From Psococerastis gibbosa (Eukaryota > Arthropoda > Insecta > Psocodea > Psocidae), in assembly GCA_963971405.1 (NCBI GenBank), contig OZ020484.1:21204001-21268000 (forward strand): a DNA stretch of 64,000 nt. Reading direction: 5' to 3'. Of this stretch, positions 25,291-29,776 are shown one piece after another. The notes beneath the pieces are model-generated. The model had not been told where the DNA came from. It worked only from the letters and a program-made list of their open reading frames with translations, and did not search any database. Numbering within the stretch: position 1 is the first letter of the stretch; the number at the start of each line of letters is the position of its first letter. The position numbers and the translations under genes are program-made.

Positions 25291-25670
25291 CCCCACAGTT
25301 AGTGCAACATAATTATTATTGTGAACATAATAACTGCGGAGGGAAACGGCTTTACGCACATTTTCTTAATAGTGGGAAATTTGTAATTAGGATGCTAACT
25401 ATAAAAATATATTCGTTTTAAAAATAATTAATAACGGTACAGGACATAGAATAAATATTTACTACAGGAACAGGTACAGGAATATGGAATTCAGTTTAAA
25501 AAAAAAACTATTGCCTAACAATTCATTTTTTTTAAACCATCGCCAAGTCTGTGGAAACAGTGCTTGTGCTTCTATTCGGTAATCTTGACTTAAAACTACT
25601 TGCAGCGTGCAGTCCAATCAACCACAAAACACTGTGCACCCATAATACTACTATGTTCAATGATCGTGTA

Positions 25671-25846
25671 CAAGGCCGTGCCCAGGTTTTGATATCCGGG
25701 GGGGGGGGTCCAAAAAATTTGTTTACGTAATTTATTAATGAATTAATGGATGAATTCTTCAAACAATACAGGTTTACATTTTTTTTTAAATATTTCGGGA
25801 GGGGGGAGTCCGGACCCCTTGGACCACCCACCTGGGCACGGCCATG
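25671..25846. mobile_element. hAT-type miniature element, family B (176 bp)
   Basis: Ends CAAGGCCGTGCCCAGG and CCTGGGCACGGCCATG with the exact 8-bp target duplication ATCGTGTA (25663-25670 and 25847-25854). A G10-11 run lies near the left end and GGGAGGGGGGAGTCCGGACC near the right. It has no coding capacity and is the same family as 4919-4996. It lies 38 bp from the PLE. Confidence 0.85.
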
Positions 25847-25884
25847 ATCGTGTACATTTAATATTGTAGATATTATATATATTA

Positions 25885-26138
25885 CTTATAATTGTAGAAA
25901 GAATGAGACGCAACTGATCCACAATAAAATATATTAAACGTGACCGGTTTCGGTAAAATACCATCATCAGACATAAACAAATAAATGAAACACGCCTTTA
26001 TATACATACCAAGGAGGGTTGGGGGATACAATATTAATTGGTAGGAGGTGGGCGGGGTTGGGAACATAACATTAGGAGTGGGGAGCAATTTTGGAAAATT
26101 ATCTCGTTGGTTAGATTTTCGTTATTGTGTAAAGCTTT
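25885..26138 (-). repeat. PLE left pseudo-LTR (3' copy relative to the gene)
   Basis: 254 bp, apparently identical to 28530-28783 (offset 2645). It encodes the last 35 or so residues of the endonuclease ORF, the stop, and a hammerhead motif downstream of the stop. Confidence 0.9.
25938..25974 (-). ncRNA. Hammerhead ribozyme motif, copy 1
   Basis: Minus-strand RNA: AUGU, then core CUGAUGA, then stem II (U)GGUA-UUU-UACC, then GAAAC-CG-GUC, then ACGU closing stem I with AUGU. All conserved core positions are present. Stem III is only CC/GG and palindromic, as in the minimal hammerheads described in Penelope-like elements, which act best as dimers. Predicted cleavage is after GUC, between 25942 and 25941. 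Confidence 0.85.
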
Positions 26139-27824
26139 ATTTATTTCTATACTCTCTAACCTATCGAGAATTTTTCCCTTGTTAGAACAGTGCATCAGCT
26201 GGAAGTTGTCAAAATCGCAAGTATGGCCATTGTCGTGCAAGTGATTGGCGAACACCGAATTGCAATCGTTTTTACCGATTGCCCTTCGGTGCTCGTTCAA
26301 CCTATCTCTGAAGTTGCGTCCACATTGACCAATGTAGCTAGCGTCACAATCCTTACAGCTGAGTTTATACACACCCGACATCCTAAACTTGTCAACTTTG
26401 TCCTTACAATTCATGAGCAGTTTACTTAGATTAGGAGGGCAAGTGTATGAAACCCTACTGTTAGTGATGCACTGTTCTAACAATCTACCTATCTTAATAC
26501 TAATATCTCCTATGTAGGGAATCTTCAAGTAGCGGTGTTCCTCCTTCGTCATATTTTGGCCCGCGTATACTTGTCGAGCGATGTACTTCAATCCATGTTT
26601 CCTGATAATCCTCGTCGCGAATTCCTGGGTATAACCGTTGTTAGTGGCGATCTCTAGAATAGTGTTCCTTTCCTGCCTGAAGTGTTCTGCTGACATGGGG
26701 ACGTTATGAAGCCTGTGAGACATCGCATGGAACGCTGCTGCCTTATGAGCCGGGGGATGGTGTGACGTCGCTGGAATCACCGTGTCCGTATGTGTAGGTT
26801 TCCTGAAAATGTTAAAAAGGAGGGCAGTATCTGATCTAGTAATTGTGAGGTCTAGGAAGTTCAGGGAGTTGTTAACTTCAATTTCCATGGTGAATTTAAT
26901 ACTAGGGTGAAGATCATTGAGAATACTGGCAAAACTGTCTAGTTGACGACGAGAACCCCTAAAAATGGCAAAGATATCGTCGACGTACCGTTTCCAAAGT
27001 TTGACATGTCCTAACAAAGGTGTGGGGGTTTGAAATAATTTGGTTTCAATATGATTCATAAAAATTTTCGCTAGAAGAGGGGACAAAGACGAGCCCATGG
27101 CTAAACCTGATTTTTGACTATAGAAAGTATTATTAAACTGAAAGTAATTTTGATCTAAAATCAACTTAAGAAGTTTGAGGGTCTCAGTTATAATAGCCTG
27201 AGGCACCCCCTTCCCCTTAAGCATCTCTTCGATAATACCTGGCAATTCAGAGGTTGGGACATTAGTAAATAAGGAGGTAACGTCAAAGGAAACTAGGGAA
27301 CAGTTGTGGGCCAGAGGATGGTGCTGGAGTTGATTTATTAAGTCTAAAGAGTTTTTGAGGCCATAGGTAGGTTTAAAATCTAATAATGCTCTTAAATGGT
27401 CATTGAGAAATGCAGCGAGCTTACTGCAGGGGCTAAGAATGGATCCGACCACAGGACGGATAGGCTCATTGATTTTATGAAGCTTACTAAGACCATAAAG
27501 GCGCGGAGGTTTAGGATTCATGACAACACATCTGGAAACATCTATGGTAGTACATTGTTTAACAATTTTTTTAACTTGATACTGGAATTTGTTAGTAGGG
27601 TCGTGACGCAGAGTGTCAAAGATGTCATCACGGAGAAAATCGAACACTTTAGCATTATAATCTTGCCTATGTAACAAGACGATAGTTTGGCCTTTGTCCG
27701 CTTTGGTTAGGACTACATTATTGTTTTTTAACTTATTCCGTAACTCCTTACATACCTTCACTTCCGAGAACTTACTATACGATTGACGGGGGTTGCCTAT
27801 GCCTATTTTAATTTCTCTAGTCAA
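26034..27824 (-). CDS. PLE reverse transcriptase and GIY-YIG endonuclease
   Basis: 596 codons. Early KADKGQTIVLL (about 41-51), then the telomerase/PLE-type LYGLSKLHK with RPVVG (109-127). RT palm motifs follow: SFDVTSLFTNVP (179-190, catalytic Asp), GLAMGSSLSPLLAKIF (240-255) and YVDDIFAIF (280-288, catalytic YVDD), then LNFLDLTITR (321-330). The C-terminal endonuclease shows GVY (484-486), a CKDC pair (490-493), YIG (497-499), the Arg of FRDRLNEH (about 505-512) and the Glu of LDRLESIEI. The enzyme copies element RNA and nicks the target. All catalytic residues are visible. The last 35 codons lie in the left pseudo-LTR. The first codon here is TTG, not ATG: this is the continuation of the frame at 27821-28528. 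Confidence 0.95.
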   Translation of the reverse strand: MTREIKIGIGNPRQSYSKFSEVKVCKELRNKLKNNNVVLTKADKGQTIVLLHRQDYNAKVFDFLRDDIFDTLRHDPTNKFQYQVKKIVKQCTTIDVSRCVVMNPKPPRLYGLSKLHKINEPIRPVVGSILSPCSKLAAFLNDHLRALLDFKPTYGLKNSLDLINQLQHHPLAHNCSLVSFDVTSLFTNVPTSELPGIIEEMLKGKGVPQAIITETLKLLKLILDQNYFQFNNTFYSQKSGLAMGSSLSPLLAKIFMNHIETKLFQTPTPLLGHVKLWKRYVDDIFAIFRGSRRQLDSFASILNDLHPSIKFTMEIEVNNSLNFLDLTITRSDTALLFNIFRKPTHTDTVIPATSHHPPAHKAAAFHAMSHRLHNVPMSAEHFRQERNTILEIATNNGYTQEFATRIIRKHGLKYIARQVYAGQNMTKEEHRYLKIPYIGDISIKIGRLLEQCITNSRVSYTCPPNLSKLLMNCKDKVDKFRMSGVYKLSCKDCDASYIGQCGRNFRDRLNEHRRAIGKNDCNSVFANHLHDNGHTCDFDNFQLMHCSNKGKILDRLESIEINKALHNNENLTNEIIFQNCSPLLMLCSQPRPPPTN

Positions 27825-28528
27825 AAAATGTTTGGAGTTAAGGCATTTTTTAAAACCGCATCAACACTACTACAAAATAGTGCCTTTTCTCTATGTGACA
27901 CCTTAGAAATAGGGCAATATTTAAAACCTTTCTGGAGAATTGAAGTTTCTTCTGTAGTAAATAATAAATTAGTTTTGTTTACAAGCCTGGGAAACCATTT
28001 AGTCGTGGCATTAACAACCGAAGTGTTGTCTTCTGCTACGTTGTCGTCTGCAATATTGTTGTTATTTTTGTTTGAAATAAAATAATCGCAATTTTTCAGA
28101 TTTTCCAGTTTTTTGCCCTGTGTTGATCTCTTTTTAAATAAAATAGGACTACAGTAATCAAAAATTTGATCAAAAAATGAGTGTAGTTCAACCGTGTGTA
28201 GTTTCGTAACGAGTTGTGAGTGTACCACATACAAGTACGTCCCTATACTGTCTCTAATACGAAACCATCTCTTGATTTCTTCATCTAACCAAAAAGATTG
28301 GGATTTTAGTAACACTCGTTTTGAAATGCTTATGTTACAAGCAAATAATTTAACCTTAAGATAAGAGGGGAATACCTTGGCACGCTTACAGTCTAGATTA
28401 AAACGTAAGTTTAAACTCACCTTGCCTTGACGTAGTTTCAAATGTTTGTAGAGGGACAGGAGATCTGCTGTGCACGCCTTACGAATCATAGTGAGATTCT
28501 CCAAAGTGACTTCGTGGAACTTCATCAT
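27821..28528 (-). CDS. PLE N-terminal coding segment
   Basis: Starts at ATGATG (MMKFHEV), 1 nt inside the right pseudo-LTR boundary, so that pseudo-LTR supplies the promoter and 5' leader. 235 codons, basic, with SILQKGFKYCPISK near the end, the conserved stretch that precedes the RT in PLE proteins. It stops at a TGA directly after a T6 run, where the other frame (-1 relative) carries on into the RT. A one-base length change in the homopolymer, in the genome or in the assembly, explains this simply. Frameshifting cannot be excluded, but no classical X-XXY-YYZ heptamer is in frame. This segment has no known separate function. Confidence 0.85.
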   Translation of the reverse strand: MMKFHEVTLENLTMIRKACTADLLSLYKHLKLRQGKVSLNLRFNLDCKRAKVFPSYLKVKLFACNISISKRVLLKSQSFWLDEEIKRWFRIRDSIGTYLYVVHSQLVTKLHTVELHSFFDQIFDYCSPILFKKRSTQGKKLENLKNCDYFISNKNNNNIADDNVAEDNTSVVNATTKWFPRLVNKTNLLFTTEETSILQKGFKYCPISKVSHREKALFCSSVDAVLKNALTPNIF

Positions 28529-28747
28529 ACTTATAATTGTAGAAAGAATGAGACGCAACTGATCCACAATAAAATATATTAAACGTGACCGGTTTCGGTA
28601 AAATACCATCATCAGACATAAACAAATAAATGAAACACGCCTTTATATACATACCAAGGAGGGTTGGGGGATACAATATTAATTGGTAGGAGGTGGGCGG
28701 GGTTGGGAACATAACATTAGGAGTGGGGAGCAATTTTGGAAAATTAT
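28484..28747. repeat. Arm 1 of the 264-nt PLE inverted repeat
   Basis: Pairs with 28804-29067 across a 56-nt AT-rich spacer, with no mismatch noticed. It comprises the first 40-45 nt of the coding region and most of the right pseudo-LTR. Confidence 0.9.
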
Positions 28748-28783
28748 CTCGTTGGTTAGATTTTCGTTATTGTGTAAAGCTTT
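28530..28783 (-). repeat. PLE right pseudo-LTR (5' copy relative to the gene)
   Basis: Same 254 bp as 25885-26138. It ends immediately before the ATG of the PLE frame, so it acts as the 5' leader and presumably the promoter. Confidence 0.9.
28583..28619 (-). ncRNA. Hammerhead ribozyme motif, copy 2
   Basis: Same sequence as copy 1, in the leader pseudo-LTR. Self-cleavage after GUC falls between 28587 and 28586 and would define the 5' end of the transcript 57 nt upstream of the PLE ATG. Confidence 0.85.
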
Positions 28784-28803
28784 TATATTTATATATATAT
28801 ATT

Positions 28804-29067
28804 ATAATTTTCCAAAATTGCTCCCCACTCCTAATGTTATGTTCCCAACCCCGCCCACCTCCTACCAATTAATATTGTATCCCCCAACCCTCCTTGGTAT
28901 GTATATAAAGGCGTGTTTCATTTATTTGTTTATGTCTGATGATGGTATTTTACCGAAACCGGTCACGTTTAATATATTTTATTGTGGATCAGTTGCGTCT
29001 CATTCTTTCTACAATTATAAGTATGATGAAGTTCCACGAAGTCACTTTGGAGAATCTCACTATGATT
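28804..29067 (+). repeat. PLE inverted tail (arm 2)
   Basis: Reverse complement of 28484-28747. It includes the start of the coding region (GAAGTTCCACGAAGTCAC) in the opposite direction and ends at the putative target duplication. The junction with simple (TA)n DNA at 28784-28803 suggests template switching during insertion. Confidence 0.9.
28932..28968 (+). ncRNA. Hammerhead ribozyme motif, copy 3 (inverted)
   Basis: The same ribozyme sequence on the plus strand within the inverted tail; predicted cleavage between 28964 and 28965. Any plus-strand read-through transcript would carry it. Confidence 0.8.
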
Positions 29068-29077
29068 ATATATATTA

Positions 29078-29776
29078 TATGAAAAGAAGATCAACGGTAA
29101 AAGCGAAAATTGAAATACAAAGTTCGAATGGCTTAGCTAATGTGGTTATATTACTTATATTTGCCACATACTGTCGGTAACATAGACACTGCCTAATACA
29201 ATAGAGTTTAGATGATGAAAGGTTATATTAAGCGAGGTAAAGAAAATTTCTGCAGTGAAAGCAAAACTTGATGAGGTAACTAGTCGATCCAGAAGAATGG
29301 GCTGCTCCCCACTCTCTGCTGACCCCACAACAGGATCCTGCAGGACAAAAGGCCACCCCGCGGCCCGCCCCATTGTCAGGCCCAGACCTAATCCATTACA
29401 TTCATTCAAGAATGCGTCTCCATTAAATGCAACTCCATAGTATATCTTCTATAGCATTTCATTAGCCAATGAGCTGACTGAGGGGCTTCGGTCAACCCAT
29501 ATACAGTACAGTCATTAGGCGTTAATAATTGCCTTTCAACCTTATTCAACGCATTGTACCGTATATTTTACAATAGAGGGCTTGGTAACTTAAATTCACT
29601 GTAAAGATTAGATACTGACCAGTGACCTACGAAAATTTTGAATAGACTAGTATAGGTTTCTTCACTTCATTGACGCTACACAATATACAATTCTATTTAG
29701 TCGTTATTACCGTATGAGTTACGAAAATCAGACGGAAAATGATGTAGACTAATAAGTCACCTATTGCGCTATATGT
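29078..29776. other. Noncoding flank of the PLE
   Basis: No gene supported. A GC-richer patch at about 29280-29400 is open on both strands without splice or start evidence. Confidence 0.35.

Follow-up and report, generated by a model that had tools for sequence, protein, structure and literature searches.

A Penelope-like element (PLE) in a 64,000-nucleotide window of the psocodean insect Psococerastis gibbosa (contig OZ020484.1, positions 21,204,001 to 21,268,000; contig C1 of a 409-Mb genome) is by kind an ordinary young PLE, and the end structures of its family give a sharp rule on integration. Where both outer borders of an insertion carry a recognizable 3′ end of the element, one end bears a short tail running past the junction between the pseudo-long terminal repeat (pseudo-LTR) and the open reading frame (ORF), and the other end does not: 49 of 50 such loci in the window's family (family A) are mixed in this way. 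The best explanation as a whole, to which we give a probability of about 0.72, is that a symmetric staggered cut opens both target strands and that both 3′ ends prime reverse transcription on one RNA at different start sites.

The window copy occupies 25885–29064, exactly the bounds given by a first-pass annotation made from the sequence, and is a head-to-head insert between 13-bp target duplications. Its coding strand is the minus strand, along which a pseudo-LTR, the coding region, a second pseudo-LTR and then target DNA follow one another. Beyond a 20-nt AT-rich stretch lies a short opposite copy, composed of 220 nt of pseudo-LTR and a 41–44-nt tail, and then target. Positions within the element are given as R coordinates, in which R1–256 is the first pseudo-LTR, R257 is the first base of the tail and the unit length is 2645.

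25872–25884, no strand: target site duplication, left copy, ATTATATATATTA (sequence)
25885–28783, minus: arm 1 (tail-less, 'N' arm), 2,899 nt, a whole unit plus second pseudo-LTR that extends past the predicted transcript start; its 3′ end in element sense adjoins the left duplication
25885–26138, minus: 3′ pseudo-LTR of arm 1 (repeat match 25883–26138, 100%)
28528–28783, minus: 5′ pseudo-LTR of arm 1 (repeat match, 100%)
28784–28803, no strand: AT-rich stretch separating the arms (sequence)
28804–29064, plus: arm 2 (tailed, 'T' arm), a 5′-truncated pseudo-LTR plus tail, head-to-head with arm 1
29024–29064, plus: tail, the first 41 nt past the pseudo-LTR/ORF junction (at most 44 nt with target-shared bases)
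29065–29077, no strand: target site duplication, right copy, ATTATATATATTA (sequence)

The direct repeats at 25883–26138 and 28528–28783 are identical at 256 of 256 positions; the first-pass annotation had described identical pseudo-LTRs of 254 bp, a length that leaves out two bases common to the target duplication. Its 264-nt inverted segment was also recovered, as arms at 28484–28747 and 28804–29067 that are 264 nt long and 100% complementary, and the matching 13-mers that it reported at both ends are the two copies of ATTATATATATTA. What it called an inverted pseudo-LTR tail is, more aptly, arm 2 of a head-to-head insertion. An apparent 12-nt entry of arm 1 into a further unit was dropped; the stretch is AT-rich and holds three differences.

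We examined 80 family-A loci (L009–L088, the window copy being L048), and 50 non-duplicate loci have a recognizable element 3′ end, tail-less (N) or tailed (T), at both outer borders. The 49 mixed loci comprise 44 of the young family and 5 of a diverged subfamily, and no locus among the 80 has tails at both ends. Against an independent 1:1 choice of start site, 49 of 50 corresponds to a binomial p of about 9 × 10⁻¹⁴. Tail-less border matches end at R249–262, most of them at R253–258, and tailed borders at about R297–305. L021 repeats L020 and was not counted; for the old locus L037 the limit was widened to admit the tail-less end. The 29 loci left out consist of six with odd ends and a remainder that is one-armed or eroded (including the duplicates L026 and L084). 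Two-ended insertions consist of a pair of 5′-truncated copies in head-to-head orientation.

An inverted repeat would also result if one complementary DNA (cDNA) or antisense RNA folded on itself and was copied, as has been proposed for head-to-head rotifer PLEs (PMC3846280), and the near-perfect palindromic junctions of L015, L035, L038, L049, L050, L060, L067, L068 and L070 fit such a fold-back. It would, however, give the same tail state at both ends, whereas 49 of 50 loci are mixed; moreover, the two arms are often truncated at widely different points (1119 versus 2044 nt in L011, 1379 versus 58 nt in L017) and both outer ends adjoin the target duplication. As a general mechanism fold-back is disfavoured, and we consider it very improbable.

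A second family (family B) has about 48% protein identity to family A, a unit of 2876 nt, an open 923-aa ORF in L090 and a 45-nt tail at the place corresponding to the family-A tail. Its exact ends occur genome-wide at 502 tail-less and 987 tailed or internal places, far more than in the window family. Pairing was confined to contig C1 and drew on the first 100 of the 502 and of the 987 places; 58 of the contig's 59 tail-less places fall within the range shared by both. Among the matches listed, 21 of 22 neighbour pairs are mixed and one has no tail at either end, after one pair with two tails (in L090) was set aside as an internal tandem junction. Pairs without tails are under-counted because about one tail-less end in four escapes the pattern; pairs with two tails are unaffected. 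At sequence level we examined 19 of the 21 mixed pairs and the tail-less pair: all 19 have a border match of 9–16 nt, and the tail-less pair, L098, has no target duplication at its borders. Family B also holds tandem units (L090:1–3787).

Target duplications bound the mixed insertions of both families. A border match of at least 9 nt is present in 68 of 68 mixed insertions versus 5 of 330 mispaired flanks, and one of at least 11 nt in 66 of 68 versus 0 of 330. The commonest match is 12–13 nt in family A and 11–12 nt in family B, with a cluster at 11–14 bp. To compare the two cuts, we tabulated 48 of the 49 mixed family-A insertions (L088 left out) with the tail-less end turned left and each half-site read toward the duplication. 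At the tail-less and tailed cuts, respectively, T stands at −5 in 22 and 25 of the 48, a purine at −3 in 41 and 40, a purine at −2 in 31 and 33, C at −1 in 17 and 19, and A or T at the first inside base in 37 and 42; the last two preferences may be partly artefact because the duplication edge was extended over bases shared with the element ends. Both cuts thus show the same half-site, and the asymmetry seems to lie on the RNA side rather than in DNA cutting.

The course of events that we favour would begin with the PLE enzyme, probably as a dimer, cutting both strands at two like half-sites about 12–13 nt apart and leaving 3′ overhangs, as the duplications imply. Each 3′ end would then prime reverse transcription on element RNA, one starting at the pseudo-LTR/ORF junction (N site) and the other about 44 nt deeper in the ORF (T site). 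Synthesis of both cDNAs would proceed toward the 5′ end of the RNA, and the free cDNA ends would be joined, many through 1–6 shared bases; extending both 3′ ends of such a staggered cut would produce head-to-head arms flanked by duplications. In a further step of this scheme, both cDNAs would be copied from the same RNA, with each start site used once per event. We place two-strand priming with complementary starts at much the same level as the scheme as a whole, and the origin of both arms in one RNA molecule lower.

Shared variants and arm lengths bear on the template. A minority variant occurs in all arms of one insertion in 11 cases at 10 sites, 8 of the 11 without another carrier among the covering copies. 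The window's R120 variant, for instance, is present in its three pseudo-LTR copies and in 0 of 57 others, and variant 2441 is confined, among the covering copies, to L014 and L015, where it is present in both arms of each. Arm lengths within family-A insertions correlate (Spearman 0.62, p = 2 × 10⁻⁶; short/long table, Fisher p = 2 × 10⁻⁵). Together, these results favour the copying of both arms from a single RNA or from RNAs that share a source copy. The latter option, in which each protomer of a dimer brings a separate RNA of that shared source and dimer geometry sets which arm is N and which is T, is quite possible, though we lean away from it. It accords with the AlphaFold-predicted dimer of an anole PLE (PMC11167929) and with like half-sites on both strands, and RNAs acting near their source locus would also be expected to share private variants. 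On the other hand, the 8 of 11 shared variants without another carrier would imply a source copy that is absent from the assembly or unsampled, and the correlated family-A arm lengths fit one molecule more simply.

Several observations weigh against two-strand priming on one RNA at complementary starts. Each family has one case without tails, L071 in family A and L098 in family B. The palindrome of L071 extends 42–43 nt into both flanks and the locus therefore looks like fold-back of a one-armed insertion; we read both cases as other events than a standard insertion. In six loci (L012, L016, L027, L036, L041 and L046), arms face outward at both borders but at least one of the two ends lies at neither the N nor the T site. 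In the 21 of 29 left-out loci whose flanks were compared, 8 show a border match of at least 8 nt, and seven of these are one-armed, four tail-less and three tailed (L031, L044, L062, L072, L078, L080 and L081). One-armed insertions are thus real and start at either site, and both strands are not always extended. For the anole PLE in vitro, no difference in start site was seen between strands (PMC11167929). In family B, the arm-length correlation is not significant (p = 0.19, n = 19).

Arm sequences supply two further points of this kind: of the 17,340 sites present in both arms of an insertion, 31 carry a substitution between the two, and variant sharing could come from gene conversion. The arm comparison left out L021, L026, L084 and matches below 97% identity, with gaps uncounted; at least 4 of the 31 sites, all in L009, lie at match ends, and the arms of the window copy show 0 differences over 264 sites. 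We read most of the 31 as later mutations. Conversion within the palindrome after insertion would have made the arms alike and the shared variants uninformative about the template. Inverted repeats are generally known to convert readily, and the window's three pseudo-LTR copies are identical; yet the 31 unshared differences persist, and the presence of variant 2441 in both arms of both L014 and L015 is more easily explained by inheritance from a source than by two conversions. Gene conversion as the origin of the likeness between arms is, in our view, distinctly unlikely.

Among the loci with odd ends, L012, L016, L027 and L046 have a tailed end opposite an outward arm that ends inside the element (at R2499, R1451, R1976 and R197, respectively). 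A start of the L046 arm at the 3′ end of a ribozyme product was considered and dropped; those bases lie in its target duplication.

The 5′ ends of the arms cluster at a fixed distance from a short motif in the pseudo-LTR.

28642–28649, minus: TATATAAA in the 5′ pseudo-LTR; its first base is R135 (sequence)

R165, which lies 30 nt downstream of the first TATATAAA base, is the exact end point of 12 of the 98 family-A arms; of the 38 family-B arms, 5 stop at 675–681, where 677 is expected from the TATATAAA spacing (both are counts without a formal test). From this 30-nt spacing we infer a transcript start, predicted near 28619 in the window, at which the pile-ups of 5′ ends would represent run-off. 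Both reverse transcription start sites would then lie near the RNA 5′ end, which would account for the tiny size of many insertions. Arm junctions are shared by separate insertions whose target duplications differ (R180/R165 in L061 and L079; R165/R165 in L049, L050 and L070; R198/R198 in L060, L067 and L068), and joining points therefore recur. Two arms pass R165, window arm 1 and that of L009, which spans more than one unit, and these need a tandem, read-through or circular RNA.

The circular option draws on a ribozyme-like motif. The first-pass annotation had noted three hammerhead motifs. Using the type I minimal core, which we take to be CUGAUGA...GAAA...UH in that order, we found three matches in the window to CTGATGA-N12-GAAA-N4-TC, compared with a mean of 0.13 in shuffled sequence (1 of 100 shuffles reached three).

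25942–25970, minus: hammerhead core, copy 1, with predicted cleavage after its last base (pattern match)
28587–28615, minus: hammerhead core, copy 2 (pattern match)
28936–28964, plus: hammerhead core, copy 3, in arm 2 (pattern match)

The number stands, but the three are one motif in three copies of the pseudo-LTR, and Rfam gave no hammerhead in the window at gathering score and none in 25800–29200 with E up to 10. Rfam microRNA names in 25800–29200 were discarded as reflecting the perfect hairpin between the arms. In family B, a ribozyme-like motif at L090:751–785, read by eye, has CTGTAGA instead of CTGATGA. Stem III is palindromic in both families (ACCGGT in family A, AGCGCT in family B), which suggests dimeric action of the motif.

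Long arms such as window arm 1 and that of L009 might have been copied from ribozyme-made circular RNA rather than from linear read-through or tandem transcripts. Both pass the predicted start at R165, and a hammerhead core sits in each pseudo-LTR. At the predicted ribozyme cut, R198, 9 of 98 family-A arms end, 8 of the 9 in four insertions with both arms there, and L059 repeats bases that begin at R198. The palindromic stem III suits dimers, and the computed energy is −16.7 kcal/mol for a two-strand fold versus −5.6 for one strand (−11.2 for two apart), although the computed fold is not necessarily the active one. Retrozyme RNAs, too, circularize (PMC7229834). We nevertheless downgraded the R198 ends as proof of ribozyme-cut templates: the ACGT palindrome at R198–201 could itself cause joining, and 0 of 38 family-B arms end at that family's ribozyme-like site. 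The anole system did not require cleavage, and none of its reads terminated at the site (PMC11167929); family B has tandem units in the genome. Circular templates for the long arms seem unlikely.

The family is young. An own-genome search gave at least 141 matches, many at 99–100% identity, with 40 of 1136 candidates scored, and exact patterns matched 58 tailed junctions genome-wide, of which a few are internal, and 37 tail-less ends; about a quarter of tail-less ends escape the pattern used for them. The 48 tabulated insertions have 48 different target duplications. The first-pass annotation had proposed a recent insertion; this reading, and that of a recently active family, is supported because the pseudo-LTRs do not differ base by base over 256 positions and the family counts dozens of near-identical copies that differ in their target duplications, not one diverged copy. 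L020/L021, L025/L026 and L083/L084 are like insertion pairs with identical flank letters at different places, and are copies of surrounding DNA rather than new insertions. Gaps of 200 N lie inside the PLE palindromes of nine loci (L009, L010, L012, L013, L014, L015, L023, L029 and L034); the assembly therefore breaks or scaffolds at inverted repeats, and nearby sequence may be wrong.

The coding sequence of the window copy is split over two frames.

26034–27824, minus: ORF of 596 aa, reverse transcriptase (RT; YVDD) plus candidate C-terminal GIY-YIG domain (Pfam, translation)
27821–28612, minus: ORF of 263 aa, N-terminal part, in a different frame (ORF list)

Open frames around the same match are longer in some sister copies, reaching 806 aa. 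An RT with YVDD, as annotated, was borne out by a Pfam RVT_1 match (E = 4.7 × 10⁻¹¹) and by YVDD readable in the 596-aa ORF. The GIY-YIG domain claimed with its Arg and Glu is less clear-cut: GVY..YIG and the Arg and Glu positions can be read by eye from the translation, C-terminal of the RT, but the Pfam score of 18.4 bits (E = 0.0028) is below the curated cut-off of 22.6. Searching PDB sequences returned no match with E up to 0.001. In its direct and inverted pseudo-LTRs, partial tandems and short tail starting at the pseudo-LTR/ORF junction, the family has features of endonuclease-bearing (EN+) PLEs.

Just left of the PLE, an element-like stretch at 25674–25843 has inverted ends GGCCGTGCCCAGGT and ACCTGGGCACGGCC, read by eye, and arms at 25648–25687 and 25830–25869 that are 75% complementary; it resembles a small DNA transposon. 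The genome carries TTAGG-type telomere arrays.

R2 and other long interspersed nuclear elements (LINEs) prime reverse transcription from nicked target DNA and leave 5′ truncations and target duplications, features they share with the insertions described here. They make one cDNA per insertion from the RNA 3′ end, whereas here two opposed cDNAs would have started inside the RNA. Penelope of Drosophila virilis, which is active in dysgenic crosses, has a short extension at an end and an inverted pseudo-LTR, as the P. gibbosa element does. Close parallels come from Poseidon of Anolis carolinensis (PAc), studied by Frangieh et al. in 2024: it combines RT and GIY-YIG, has pseudo-LTRs and a hammerhead near the ORF start, and in vitro its target is cut and extended on both strands, with two adjacent internal RT start sites that bound the tail (PMC11167929). 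That paper presents the tail in one place as an optional extension in a fraction of D. virilis Penelope copies and elsewhere as a structure of most inserted copies (PMC11167929). Here, by comparison, a two-ended insertion has one start of each kind, mostly an 11–14-nt duplication, and like half-sites. Penelope families of Adineta vaga likewise have a head-to-head inverted pseudo-LTR, a 31-bp tail on one and duplications of 8–10 bp, but the tail was described as optionally present and the inversion read as self-priming on an antisense template; the accessible part of that 2013 study holds no count of mixed versus unmixed ends that we could find (PMC3846280). A 2020 retrozyme study covers minimal ribozymes in PLEs and circular retrozyme RNAs (PMC7229834), and the words 'tail' and 'pLTR' were not found in the available text of a 2026 D. 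virilis paper (PMC12910113). We found the rule of one tail per insertion neither in the titles or abstract openings of the literature searched nor in the papers that could be searched, and it could already have been published elsewhere.

Few routes of eukaryotic retroelements are as poorly understood as PLE integration, and the 2024 anole study left further steps for experimental validation (PMC11167929). Dozens of near-intact insertions in P. gibbosa let the end products be read, and they point to both strands being primed, cuts that are alike and a template used at two points. Tentatively, and with somewhat less than even confidence, we suggest that EN+ PLE integration may generally be a two-strand event in which one RNA serves both 3′ ends of a symmetric staggered cut and the start sites are mutually exclusive. 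Tail and no-tail would in that case each mark one half of any complete insertion and not be an optional feature. The end products in P. gibbosa bring the head-to-head layout and the 'optional' tail, described by 2013, under a single rule that can be checked in any PLE-rich genome and in the existing in vitro system.

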